Assembly: GCF_007990525.1 (NCBI RefSeq)
Contig: NZ_AP019823.1
Span: forward strand, 1,178,001 to 1,242,000
DNA: 64,000 nt
Source of the DNA: Leptotrichia hofstadii
Lineage (GTDB): Bacteria; Fusobacteriota; Fusobacteriia; Fusobacteriales; Leptotrichiaceae
Reading direction: 5' to 3'
In this document: in pieces, positions 9,102 through 13,339 of the stretch
Layout of the letters: each line of letters starts with the position of its first letter
How positions within the stretch are numbered: position 1 is the stretch's first letter
The notes under the pieces: model-generated
Seen by the model: only the letters and a program-made list of their open reading frames with translations
Database searches by the model: none
Told to the model about the DNA's origin: nothing
Program-made: the position numbers and the translations under genes

Positions 9102-9130
9102 TTTACAAAAATTTTTTTTAATGATATAAT
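9102..9130 (+). promoter_or_regulatory. Promoter upstream of the three-paralogue cluster
   Basis: TTTACA, 17-base spacer that is mostly T, TATAAT. The 41 bases 9090-9130 match 20731-20771 upstream of trpS at 38 positions. The predicted transcript has a leader of about 125 bases before the GTG at 9263. Confidence 0.7.
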
Positions 9131-9262: not shown

Positions 9263-9910
9263 GTGAATGAAATAAAAAAAGGAATAATAATAGGTTTGTT
9301 GTTAACGTGTATTTACAGTATAGGGGCATATATTTATAAAAGTCAAGCTAAAAAGAAAACTGAAATTGGAATAAAAGACAGAAAAAATAATGAAACAAGT
9401 AAAGAAAATGCAGAAAAAGAAATTAATACACAGAACTTACAAAATGAAAATGATAAGATAATTAATGGCTATAGATATAAAAATGGCTATGTATATAAAT
9501 GGTCAGATAATGAGAAATCTGCATTTGTAAAAAGAAGCCTTGGATATGAAAAAAGATTTTCAAAAACAACAAGTCAAGAAGAGCTGGACAATGGATTAAA
9601 ATCGGAATATTGCGATGCAATAAAGGAAATTGAGAAAGTTGACCAGAAAATAGTTCCTGGAACTGATATTCCTTTTAGAAAGGCAACTTATACACAGGTG
9701 GATGATGCATATAAGAAATACTTGCAAAAAATAGCTCAAATAAGACAGGTGGTTTCTATTATAAAACCAGATAACCTAGATAACGAGATATACTTTGAAA
9801 CTCGTATAAAGTGTTGGTATAAAGGAACTAACTGGAATAATGCCAATTCAAAATTCAAGCATTTGGCAAGAGATTTTTATAGTGAGGAAGTTAATGATTA
9901 TTACAAATAA
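9263..9910 (+). CDS. Membrane-anchored protein of unknown function, paralogue 1
   Basis: I do not recognise this family. The 215 residues have one N-terminal transmembrane segment (about 7-24, GIIIGLLLTCIYSIGAYI), a Lys/Asn/Glu-rich linker (25-70), and a folded part from INGYRYKNGYVYKWSDN through SEYCDAIKEIEKVDQKIVPG to a Tyr/Trp-rich end. The start is a GTG with GGAAAGG about 14 bases upstream. Two close relatives follow in tandem, and the DNA after genes 1 and 2 is also duplicated (TAATTCATTAATTTTAAG), so whole units were copied. The topology suggests the bulk is outside the cytoplasmic membrane or facing the cytosol on a single anchor. Confidence 0.75.
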   Translation: MNEIKKGIIIGLLLTCIYSIGAYIYKSQAKKKTEIGIKDRKNNETSKENAEKEINTQNLQNENDKIINGYRYKNGYVYKWSDNEKSAFVKRSLGYEKRFSKTTSQEELDNGLKSEYCDAIKEIEKVDQKIVPGTDIPFRKATYTQVDDAYKKYLQKIAQIRQVVSIIKPDNLDNEIYFETRIKCWYKGTNWNNANSKFKHLARDFYSEEVNDYYK

Positions 9911-9973
9911 TTCATTAATTTTAAGGTATGAAAATTTATAAGAAGATAAAAATATATTTACAGAAAGGAAGAT

Positions 9974-10018
9974 ATGATATTTAGTTTGTTATCATCGCTA
10001 AGTAAAAAATGGAAATAG
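9974..10018 (+). CDS. Possible 14-codon leader peptide before paralogue 2
   Basis: The strong AAAGGA site at 9964-9969 is 39 bases from the gene's ATG but at ideal distance from the ATG at 9974, which opens a 14-residue frame (MIFSLLSSLSKKWK). It overlaps the start of the main gene by 10 bases. The same spacer also contains an inverted repeat, ATGATA (9974-9979) / TATCAT (9990-9995). Either translational coupling through the leader or folding of the spacer could deliver ribosomes to 10009. Confidence 0.35.
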   Translation: MIFSLLSSLSKKWK

Positions 10019-10650
10019 GGAAAATACTAAGTGAAATAAAAAAAGGTACAATAATAGGATTGCTATTGATAAGTTTTTATGGCATAGGAGTATATGTTTA
10101 TAAGAATAGAAATAAAGTAGAAACTAAAATTGAAATAAAAGACAGAGAAAATAATGAAATAAGTAAAGAAGATACAGTAAAAGACATTGACGCAAAGAAT
10201 AAAAATGATAAGATAATCAATGGCTATAGACATAAAAACGGCTATGTATATAAATGGTCAGATAATGAAAAATCTGCATTTGTAAAAAGAAGCCTTGGGT
10301 ATGAAAAAAGGTTTTCAAAAACAGCAGATCAAGAAGAGTTGGAAAACGGTTTAAAAAAGGAATATTGCGATGCAATAAAGGAAATTGAGAAAGTTGACCA
10401 GAAAATAGTTCCTGGAACTGATATTCCTTTTAGAAAAGCAACTTATACACAGGTGGATGATGCCTATAAGGAATACTTGCAAAAAATATCTCAAATAAGA
10501 CAGGTAGTTCGTGCTATATTGCCGGATAACAAGGAAGCTTTTGAATATCATATAAAGTGCAGATATAAAGGAACTAACTGGAATAATAAAAATTCGGAAT
10601 ATTCAGTAGCTAGTTTTTATAACGCAGAAGTTAATGATTACTACAAATAA
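10009..10650 (+). CDS. Membrane-anchored protein of unknown function, paralogue 2
   Basis: A 213-residue near-copy of paralogue 1. Residues from about 62 (NDKIINGYRHKNG) to about 170 are almost identical to it, while the linker and the last 40 residues differ more. There is one transmembrane helix near the N-terminus (about 15-30, IIGLLLISFYGIGVYV). The N-terminus is extended by EIGKILSEIKKG relative to paralogue 1 and resembles paralogue 3. The divergence pattern, a conserved core with variable tail, may mean that the tail binds a changing partner. That is inference. No function can be assigned. Confidence 0.75.
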   Translation: MEIGKILSEIKKGTIIGLLLISFYGIGVYVYKNRNKVETKIEIKDRENNEISKEDTVKDIDAKNKNDKIINGYRHKNGYVYKWSDNEKSAFVKRSLGYEKRFSKTADQEELENGLKKEYCDAIKEIEKVDQKIVPGTDIPFRKATYTQVDDAYKEYLQKISQIRQVVRAILPDNKEAFEYHIKCRYKGTNWNNKNSEYSVASFYNAEVNDYYK

Positions 10651-10710
10651 TTCATTAATTTTAAGCTGTAAAAAGTTTTGAAATACCATGTATATTTACG
10701 GAAAGGAAAA

Positions 10711-10734
10711 TATGACAGTTAATACACTGTCATA
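10711..10734 (+). promoter_or_regulatory. Inverted repeat between ribosome site and start of paralogue 3
   Basis: A perfect 9-bp stem TATGACAGT / ACTGTCATA with a 6-base loop lies between GGAAAGGA (10700-10707) and the ATG at 10747. The unfolded gap is 39 bases, exactly as in paralogue 2. Folding the stem shortens it to about 15, the gap seen in paralogue 1. It also contains a 7-codon frame (ATG at 10712 to TAA at 10735). Confidence 0.5.
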
Positions 10735-10746
10735 AATAAATATAGA

Positions 10747-11319
10747 ATGAGAAGTGGAAATATTGAAAAAATACTGACAGAAGTAAAAAAAGGGATTGTA
10801 ATAGGTTTATTATTAACAGGTCTTTATGGTGTGGGGGCATATATTTATAAAAGTCAGACTAAAAATGCAGCAGAATCTAAAAATGAAATAAAAGATAATG
10901 ACAAAAATAATGGAGATACTGAAGCTGGTTATGAAATTTACGGATATAGATATAAAAATGAAGGTGATAAAGAATCTAAAGTTTTAAAAAGAAACTTAGG
11001 TTATGAAAAAAGGATTGCAGAAGCAGTAAATAAAGAAGAAGTCCATAGTAAACTAAAATCAGAATACTGCGCCGCGATAGCCGAAATAAAAAAAGTTGAT
11101 AAAAAAATAATGCCAGGTACAAATATTCTTTTTGCACAAGCTGCCTATACTCAAGTAAAGGATTCCTATGAAGAATATTTGCAAAAGATAGCTCAAATAA
11201 AACAAGCAGTATTAACAATGGAAAATAAAGATATAGAAAGCGAGACAGGGTGTTATTATGAACCGACCAGATGGGACAAAGTAAATAATTTAAACTATAG
11301 ATTGAAGAATTTTCTTTAG
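10747..11319 (+). CDS. Membrane-anchored protein of unknown function, paralogue 3
   Basis: The 190-residue most diverged member of the tandem family. It keeps the N-terminal anchor (about 19-35, IVIGLLLTGLYGVGAYI) and the core motifs NLGYEKRIAEA, LKSEYCAAIAEIKKVDKKIMPG and AAYTQVKDSYEEYLQKIAQI. It lacks the VYKWSDNEKSAF segment of the other two and has a shorter tail. It ends the cluster ahead of a strong terminator. Function unknown. Confidence 0.72.
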   Translation: MRSGNIEKILTEVKKGIVIGLLLTGLYGVGAYIYKSQTKNAAESKNEIKDNDKNNGDTEAGYEIYGYRYKNEGDKESKVLKRNLGYEKRIAEAVNKEEVHSKLKSEYCAAIAEIKKVDKKIMPGTNILFAQAAYTQVKDSYEEYLQKIAQIKQAVLTMENKDIESETGCYYEPTRWDKVNNLNYRLKNFL

Positions 11320-11398
11320 CAGGCGTGTATTGGCTATAAAAGCTGAAATAATTATAGCGTTTGGATTTTTAGAAAAATTTAAATACATTTAAATATAG

Positions 11399-11444
11399 AA
11401 AAGCTATTTTGGGATAATATTTATTTCCTAGGATAGCTTTTTTT
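11399..11444 (+). terminator. Rho-independent terminator after the paralogue cluster
   Basis: A 9-bp stem AAAAGCTAT / ATAGCTTTT, with further partial pairing inside the loop, ends in a run of seven T. It lies 80 bases after the last paralogue. Confidence 0.8.
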
Positions 11445-12576: not shown

Positions 12577-13015
12577 ATGGCTAATAGAACTAAATAGACT
12601 GTCTCATATTAAATGGATGTGTAAGTGTGTCATATAGTATTTACACCTAAGTATAGACGAAAAATTATATATAGTCAATACAGAAAAAGTGTGGGAGAAA
12701 TTTTAAGAATATTATGTGAATATAAAGGAGTTGAAATAATAGAAGGATATCTGATGATATGCTGGTAAGCATATGACCGAAAATAAGTGTATCAAGTTTT
12801 ATGGGATATTTGAAGGGGAAAAGTGCATTGATGATGTTTGGCATGCAAACTTAAAGTATAAATTTGGAAACAGACATTTTTGGTCAGAAGGATATTATGC
12901 AAGTACAGTAGGTTTAAATGAAACAACAATAAAAAAATATATAGCCAAACAGGAGAAACATGATATAGCGATGAACAAATTAAGTGTAAAAGAAGATGAA
13001 GTCCCTTTTAGGGGT
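12577..13015 (+). mobile_element. tnpA: IS200/IS605-type tnpA relic (Y1 HUH transposase), broken
   Basis: Pieces of one small single-strand transposase can be followed across three frames. The start is at 12577 (MANRTK, preceded by GGAAGG), then LSHIKWMCK, then after a frameshift HIVFTPKYRRKIIYSQYRK and ILCEYKGVEIIEG. Next comes an apparent deletion of about 14 bases where the HUH motif should be, then a third frame with HANLKYKFGNRHFWSEGYY, STVGLNETTIKKYIAKQEKHD (catalytic Tyr helix) and LSVKEDEVPFRG. The metal-binding HUH pair is lost, so it is inactive. No terminal hairpins are obvious. It explains the broken genes on both sides. Confidence 0.85.
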
Positions 13016-13027
13016 GGTCTTGACTTT

Positions 13028-13339
13028 ATGCCAATAATCGGATTTGTGTATGATGTGCTTTTAATACTGTTATTAATATTGAAAATTACAAAATTAAATA
13101 AAGAAAATCGAACAAATGAACTAAAAAGAATAAATTATCTATCAGTAATAATAGGATGCTGTATGTGAATTTTTTTTAAAATATGTTATTATTATTTTAA
13201 TTATTTTCCTAATTCAGTGTATGGAATTTTTATAGATTCACTGTTATTATCGGATTTAAGGGAGATTACTTTATTAATATCAGCTATCACAAATGGAATT
13301 CTTATCTTTAAAAGAAAGAAGAGTAATAAAAAATATTAA
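13028..13339 (+). pseudogene. Remnant of a small membrane protein, split by an in-frame TGA
   Basis: In one frame from the ATG at 13028 there is a hydrophobic segment (FVYDVLLILLLILKI), a charged stretch (KENRTNELKRINY), and another hydrophobic run (LSVIIGCC), then TGA at 13166-13168. The same frame continues for 56 sense codons with more membrane-like sequence (FFKICYYYFNYF, LLISAITNGILIFK) and a basic end, to TAA at 13337. The 5' part fuses in frame to the tnpA relic. A nonsense mutation in a multi-spanning protein whose 5' end was removed by the IS is the simplest reading. Confidence 0.5.

Follow-up and report, generated by a model that had tools for sequence, protein, structure and literature searches.

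Hairpins between distant Shine-Dalgarno sequences and start codons in Leptotrichia: candidate split ribosome-binding sites in a tandem gene array and at unrelated genes

The p1-p2-p3 array and its long leader spacers

Three paralogous genes, here named p1, p2, and p3, lie in tandem on the forward strand of the window, i.e., the 64,000-nt stretch of the Leptotrichia hofstadii contig NZ_AP019823.1 that was analyzed (Table 1). The identity amounts to 75% between p1 and p2 and to 49-51% between p2 and p3. A named protein family was rejected for the array, as searches of p1-p3 against Pfam and NCBIfam returned no family above the cut-off. The ATG of p2 cannot be located further upstream because the in-frame stop codon TAA precedes it by two codons. 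The best promoter-like site of the region is probably the promoter of the array, but the consensus scan retrieved nine such sites in the region compared with a mean of 16.1 in shuffled sequences, and a single match therefore proves nothing. The terminator-like hairpin behind p3 was missed by the consensus scan, whose loop limit is 8. Since a promoter match before p1 is combined with a terminator-like hairpin after p3, a single transcript of the three genes is likely.

Table 1. Positions of genes and leader features in the p1-p2-p3 region of the window
Feature	Positions	Strand	Remarks
Promoter-like site (TTTACA, 17 nt, TATAAT with TG)	9102..9130	+	11/12 consensus matches; best of the region; 5' of p1
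p1, paralogue 1	9263..9910	+	GTG start; Shine-Dalgarno gap 14 (second GGA at 19)
Shine-Dalgarno GAAAGGA of p2	9963..9969	+	
p2 6-bp stem ATGATA/TATCAT	9974..9995	+	Arms 9974-9979 and 9990-9995; loop 10; looping out leaves 17 nt
p2 mini-ORF MIFSLLSSLSKKWK	9974..10018	+	14 codons and stop; overlaps the p2 start by 10 nt
Alternative p2 hairpin	9978..10004	+	Arms 9978-9985 and 9997-10004; GGA-ATG gap would be 12 nt; spacer MFE fold (-5.5, z -1.7, P 0.06)
p2, paralogue 2	10009..10650	+	ATG start; open frame of 214 codons
Shine-Dalgarno GAAAGGA of p3	10701..10707	+	
p3 9-bp hairpin TATGACAGT/ACTGTCATA	10711..10734	+	Loop 6; ATG of the mini-ORF in the 5' arm; GGA-ATG gap of 15 nt once looped out
p3 mini-ORF MTVNTLS	10712..10735	+	7 codons and stop; ends 11 nt before the p3 start
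p3, paralogue 3	10747..11319	+	ATG start
Terminator-like hairpin followed by a T run	11397..11443	+	RNAfold -20.4; 3' of p3

The three genes and their leaders are also present in G001 and G011, two of the 12 other genomes of the genus that were searched, and the three species carrying the p2 and p3 leaders are closely related (dS of 0.04 to 0.25). More distant homologues of p1-p3 have different N-termini and mostly ordinary Shine-Dalgarno sites, as judged by eye; in G003 and G004, they make up the C-terminal region of open frames that span about 590 to 620 codons (L006, L007, L014, and L018). Downstream in the window, the ORF at positions 12773-13168, whose N-terminal part matches the end of the IS200-like transposase model Y1_Tnp, is probably the remnant of such a transposase.

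An earlier note on this DNA had placed the GGA of the Shine-Dalgarno sequence 39 nt before the ATG in p2 and p3, compared with 14 nt in p1, and these distances were measured exactly (p2, GGA 9967-9969 to ATG 10009; p3, GGA 10705-10707 to ATG 10747). The gap of 39 nt is found in all six p2 and p3 leaders of the three species and is too long for direct use of the Shine-Dalgarno sequence. The mini-ORF that was said to start 4 nt after the GGA in both genes is indeed located there, at position 9974 in p2 and 10712 in p3, and an ATG at this distance with a nearby stop codon occurs in all six leaders. In p2, the mini-ORF is kept in the same frame in three species and its peptide is unchanged; the spacer differs by 0 to 1 of 39 nt (dS of 0.10 to 0.25). 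The one change is silent in the mini-ORF and located in the loop of the stem, and p2 therefore cannot separate a role of the stem from one of the peptide. In p3, 3 to 6 of the 39 nt differ between the species (dS of 0.05 to 0.15) and the peptide varies (MTVNTLS, MIVNILS, and MIFNTLS), so that a conserved leader-peptide sequence, which was sought in p3 across the three species, was not found.

The leaders of p2 and p3 can be aligned over 82 nt without insertions or deletions and are accordingly copies of one ancestral leader. Judged from this alignment, the equal gap comes from duplication and common descent, not from two independent designs. When 13 genomes of the genus were searched with a model of the leader, the six p2 and p3 leaders were the only ones recovered (next best hit with an E value of 0.19), and a dispersed element was hence rejected. 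The same applies to a known RNA family, based on the lack of an Rfam match up to an E value of 1, and to a phage origin, with one short weak match and a protein without a relative in viral contigs.

Two local features of the leaders may be recorded here. The 25 nt from TATATTTAC via the Shine-Dalgarno sequence to the mini-ORF start codon, hereafter mini-ATG (9953-9977 and 10691-10715), contain two differences between p2 and p3, i.e., fewer than the flanks, and the segment in front of the Shine-Dalgarno sequence either can pair with the region of the mini-ATG or resembles a -10 box. Six A's at window positions 10004-10009, which are unchanged in the three species, link the p2 mini-ORF to the frame of the gene; a -1 slip on this run would fuse the mini-ORF with p2.

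Stems in the p2 and p3 spacers

The inverted repeats of 6 bp (p2) and 9 bp (p3) described in the earlier note are both present, but only the latter goes beyond chance. In the window, shuffling yielded P values of 0.003 (mononucleotide) and 0.002 (dinucleotide) for the p3 stem, whose MFE is -10.5 (z of -4.6), whereas the corresponding values of 0.21 and 0.11 for the p2 stem, taken alone, do not exceed chance. In the two relatives, the perfect repeat of p3 measures 7 bp, with P values of 0.14 to 0.22 for its length and of 0.012 and 0.033 for the folding energy. The seven outer pairs of p3 have predicted probabilities of 0.63 to 1.00 in the three species. According to RNAfold, the p3 Shine-Dalgarno sequence is 0.94 unpaired, the mini-ATG is almost fully paired (at most 0.02 unpaired), and in a longer fold the ATG of the p3 gene is itself partly paired (0.26 to 0.43 unpaired). 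For p2, the pairing probability of the 6-bp stem is about 0.05 (0.14 to 0.18 in G011), the hairpin with the arms 9978-9985 and 9997-10004 is preferred, and the mini-ATG is predicted to be 0.12 to 0.33 unpaired.

The RNAalifold consensus contains a 6-bp core stem that is common to all six leaders and in which one pair has changed on both sides. With p2 as the outgroup, all four substitutions in the p3 arms keep or gain pairing (P of 0.005 to 0.009 for random placement), including changes from U-A to C-G and from U.U via G.U to G-C; starting from the state of G001, the test comprises three changes and gives P values of 0.02 to 0.12. The covariation score of the p2/p3 alignment was reached by 38 of 500 shuffles and is not significant, and the true register pairs 88.9% of the cells compared with at most 60% in any slid register. 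When the stems are looped out, a gap of 15 nt (p3) or of 17 or 12 nt (p2) is left, compared with 5 to 13 nt in three analogous gene families (see below), and the value of p3 is close to the gap of 14 nt in p1.

Distant Shine-Dalgarno sequences and hairpins at unrelated Leptotrichia genes

The usual spacing was determined in 304 kb for ORFs with a minimum length of 120 aa. A Shine-Dalgarno sequence lies 2 to 14 nt before a start codon within the first 30 codons in 203 of these 233 ORFs; the other 30 have none at this distance from any such start. Counting gaps up to 14 nt only, the local gap is 6 to 10 nt in 157 of the 203 genes and 4 nt in 10 of them. A larger sample of 1.104 Mb (53 pieces with 883 ORFs of at least 100 aa) contained 34 ATG starts with exclusively a far Shine-Dalgarno sequence (22 to 55 nt). 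A spacer stem of at least 6 bp is present in 14 of these starts, and a stem that leaves no more than 15 nt is present in 7, compared with about 8.3 to 8.5 and 2.9 to 3.0, respectively, in shuffled spacers. The P values for the two measures in three runs were 0.013 and 0.007 (300 shuffles), 0.003 and 0 (300 shuffles), and 0 and 0.025 (200 shuffles). At 98 starts that have a near Shine-Dalgarno sequence in addition to a far one, no excess was detected (16 and 4 versus 17.3 and 4.6 in shuffles), and the two classes of starts differ accordingly (Fisher P of 0.004 for stems of at least 6 bp and of 0.006 for bridging stems, i.e., 7/34 versus 4/98). The excess shrinks when p2 and p3 are left out (12 and 6 of 32; P of 0.047 and 0.037).

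These counts are indicative of a modest genome-wide enrichment of bridging stems. The enrichment was not replicated in the smaller samples from G006 (3 and 1 of 10) and G055 (5 and 3 of 22). In G004, the sample of which includes the same nadV-like gene and leader that is described below, 7 and 3 of 16 starts were found (Fisher P versus the control of 0.013 and 0.037; shuffle P of 0.17 and 0.28). In all scans, AGGA, GGAG, or GAGG were accepted as Shine-Dalgarno sequences; AGAGG and GGGG were additionally allowed in the spacing survey of 304 kb. As start, the first start codon of an ORF with a minimum length of 100 or 120 aa was taken, rather than that of an annotated gene, and stems are perfect Watson-Crick helices with a loop of at most 25.

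Five candidate families that had been picked for their stems were followed across orthologues; due to this choice, the set documents the conservation of the stems and not how common they are. The order of Shine-Dalgarno sequence, hairpin, and start codon is kept in the Leptotrichia orthologues of three unrelated genes with conserved stems and variable loops, namely, a nadV-like gene (8/8), an ABC permease gene (13/13), and a FadA-like gene (10/13). The leader of the permease gene (BPD_transp_1) consists in all 13 genomes of the genus of AGGAGGA followed by TATGAAC or TGTGGAC, which pairs with GTTCAT, a further 5 to 8 nt, and the ATG (stem scored by script in 12 genomes and by eye in G002). The loop comprises 6 to 10 nt, the linear gap of 25 to 31 nt is reduced to 5 to 9 nt upon looping out, and the stem holds an ATG in 10 and a GTG in 3 of the 13 leaders, with mini-ORFs of variable length and frame (4, 7, or more codons). 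Outside the genus, G022 has a permease hairpin with different arms, and the other three of four relatives apparently lack one, as judged by eye. The covariation of the permease leaders is not significant (500 of 500 shuffles); the true register pairs 88.6% of the cells compared with at most 47.1% in slid registers. The underlying alignment A8 omits L116 and L118, the spacers of which are identical to that of L114; G022 is included in a register that is shifted, so that its paired share comes out lower.

The nadV-like gene (NAMPT_N and NAPRTase domains) has the pair GTATGAT and ATCATAC in all eight leaders, once with a G-U pair (seven scored by script, G007 by eye), and its looped-out gap is 10 to 11 nt. 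A four-codon ORF with its stop codon, 24 to 25 nt before the start, is likewise kept in 8/8 leaders and possibly represents a conserved mini-ORF in its own right. It reads ATG RTT TTT ACR stop (L058:18300-18353), and TGA and TAA stops are exchanged across the eight species.

In the FadA-like gene (PF09403), the base stem of TACGAGAA with TTCTCGTA, or variants thereof, was found in 10 of 13 leaders, one of them with a bulge. The linear gap is 49 to 63 nt and the looped-out gap 8 to 13 nt in the eight leaders placed by script, and the three species without the hairpin have a direct gap of 10 to 11 nt. Two pairs have changed on both sides and still pair, both in G002. The covariation score was reached by 56 of 500 shuffles and is not significant, while the true register pairs 94.9% of the cells compared with at most 64.6% in slid ones. 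No ATG, GTG, or TTG occurs within the first 10 nt after the Shine-Dalgarno sequence in 8 of the 10 hairpin leaders; G002 and G007 have an ATG. In one example (L054:13695-13754), the Shine-Dalgarno sequence is followed by a long hairpin and a start codon 49 nt away. Across the three families, the Shine-Dalgarno sequences in L121, L158, and L164 and the stem in L110 were placed by eye and not by script.

Further candidates were abandoned. The hairpin of an RNase H-like gene is missing in at least 4 of 13 loci and ambiguous, and its apparent Shine-Dalgarno sequence seems to belong to the coding region of the preceding gene. A DgkA-like gene shares the hairpin solely between G000 and G009 among 9 of 13 loci inspected, and its start is poorly placed in the remaining ones. 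A wecB-like gene of the order-level relative G055 (L235:12569-12609, minus strand) has an 8-bp hairpin with a loop of 3 directly after AAAGGAGG, but most of its relatives seem to rely on a nearby Shine-Dalgarno sequence (7 of 10 loci inspected). An ordinary coupling layout without a hairpin was observed at a gene judged by eye to be HAD-like (L058:2610-2634), whose start overlaps by 4 nt with a five-codon ORF that has its own Shine-Dalgarno sequence.

Candidate split ribosome-binding sites and competing readings

The likeliest reading of the p2 and p3 leaders, to which we assign a probability of roughly 0.55, is that of split ribosome-binding sites in which a stem shortens the spacer and is accommodated by the ribosome. 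The 30S subunit would bind the exposed Shine-Dalgarno sequence, and the hairpin directly behind it would fold out the extra 24 nt (p3) or 22 to 27 nt (p2), thus bringing the distant ATG to the P site, while the nearby decoy ATG would be hidden by the same stem. This reading is favored because at unrelated genes a stem after the Shine-Dalgarno sequence removes a variable length and leaves the usual gap. From these patterns, we infer that the stem forms in vivo and is accommodated by the ribosome, and that p2 and p3 depend on it for their translation; transcription, in-cell folding, and start-site use are likewise deduced from the DNA. The earlier note had left the choice between a folded spacer and a leader peptide open. 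The folded spacer has gained most, since the p3 pairs survive substitutions and unrelated genes carry conserved hairpins at this place, whereas the p3 peptide is not conserved.

Several observations speak against the bridging hairpin. The looped-out gaps of 17 nt (p2) and 15 nt (p3) are wider than those of the other families, those given for phage T4 (5 and 11 nt, PMC3014915), and the usual local spacing; the stem of p2 is weak, and the p3 ATG is partly paired in the longer fold. Moreover, the p3 spacer sequence is not conserved, the shuffle controls of covariation are not significant, two of the five followed families failed, and the p2 and p3 leaders derive from three close species and one duplication. 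The two genes are thus weaker cases than the permease, nadV-like, and FadA-like genes, with p3 fitting the proposal and p2 fitting less well.

The main rival, which we regard as unlikely but more probable than the remaining alternatives, is a coupling by the mini-ORF. Ribosomes would initiate at the ATG 4 nt after the Shine-Dalgarno sequence, translate 14 (p2) or 7 (p3) codons of an irrelevant peptide, stop near the gene start, and reinitiate there. The unit of Shine-Dalgarno sequence and mini-ATG is better conserved than any other part of the six leaders and provides a usable initiation site of its own, and the mini-ORFs of the other families, i.e., the invariant nadV-like ORF and a permease ATG located 1 nt after the Shine-Dalgarno sequence in 10/13 leaders, are in line with coupling. 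Nevertheless, a gap of 4 nt is rarely used in the sampled genes, the mini-ATG is predicted to be mostly paired, the p3 peptide varies between species, the permease mini-ORFs differ in length and frame, and most FadA-like hairpin leaders lack an early start codon.

The published spacing data point in both directions. According to the accessible text of PMC12548453, the delivery of ribosomes by short ORFs is a known idea, no loss of coupling occurred from -4 to +25 nt in one study of Escherichia coli, and a spacing of -10 performed better than +2 in a chloroplast pair. The stop-to-start distances of -10 (p2) and +11 (p3) are nevertheless outside the most efficient range of -4 to +3 given there, other spacings being less efficient, and coupling was strongly reduced or almost lost at +12 in Bacillus subtilis and at +11 in chloroplasts (PMC12548453). 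In the part of PMC10666635 that is accessible, about 20 nt nearly abolished coupling in six pairs.

It is improbable that the leader was simply inherited without a special role. In this case, the A-rich region before the ATG would initiate translation without a Shine-Dalgarno sequence, as might be done by the 30 sampled genes that lack one nearby, and the upstream Shine-Dalgarno sequence and hairpin would be leftovers. The p2 stem is not significant and p1 has no such hairpin, as expected for leftovers, but the p2 spacer has hardly changed at its dS, p2 and p3 show almost no difference in the Shine-Dalgarno block, and the p3 stem survived four substitutions. A DNA operator for a regulator instead of an RNA hairpin, suggested by the matching position of the inverted repeats in p2 and p3, is the least probable alternative, as the repeats lie 3' of the Shine-Dalgarno sequence within the probable transcript and the arm spacing of the analogous permease leaders varies from 6 to 10 nt, which is unexpected for a fixed dimer site.

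The bridging hairpin and coupling could also be two states of one leader, since the stem of p3 is predicted to enclose the mini-ATG. A bolder and doubtful extension would be that the order of Shine-Dalgarno sequence, hairpin, and start codon is a regular chromosomal type of ribosome-binding site at unrelated Leptotrichia genes and that stems with a decoy ATG, as in p2 and p3, act as a two-state switch between the gene start (folded) and a dead-end mini-ORF (open), so that temperature, a helicase, or a small RNA could set the expression.

A spacer that is short and limited in length is what gene finders and translation models generally assume. If long spacers are frequently bridged by hairpins in a bacterial genus, some of its start sites are being misjudged, and the arrangement would lend itself to comparisons among natural variants that differ in their loops. 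To our knowledge, hairpin-bridged spacers are known from a few cases such as phage T4. In a limited search of the open-access literature, only a review on T4 and the thrS gene of E. coli came close among the matches listed. The thrS hairpin is located upstream of the Shine-Dalgarno sequence and not, as in p2 and p3, between this sequence and the AUG. Common to both systems is the proposed accommodation of a hairpin; for the split ribosome-binding site of thrS, the accessible text of PMC3936740 reports that the ribosome accommodates a long hairpin without unfolding it. With termination-reinitiation coupling, as described in the accessible parts of PMC10666635 and PMC12548453, the leaders share a short upstream ORF whose stop is close to the gene start, but they differ from the best coupled pairs in their spacing (-10 and +11 instead of -4 to +3) and in the unconserved p3 peptide. 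In phage T4, a hairpin cuts the distance between the Shine-Dalgarno sequence and the AUG from 22 to 5 nt in gene 38 and from 27 to 11 nt in gene 25, according to the accessible text of PMC3014915. The 39 nt of p2 and p3 would be shortened to 15 nt (p3) and 17 or 12 nt (p2), and the Leptotrichia genes are chromosomal and carry a decoy ATG in the stem. With genes 38 and 25 (PMC3014915), they have in common a Shine-Dalgarno sequence that is too distant from the AUG, and a hairpin in between is predicted here as well, more weakly in p2 than in p3.
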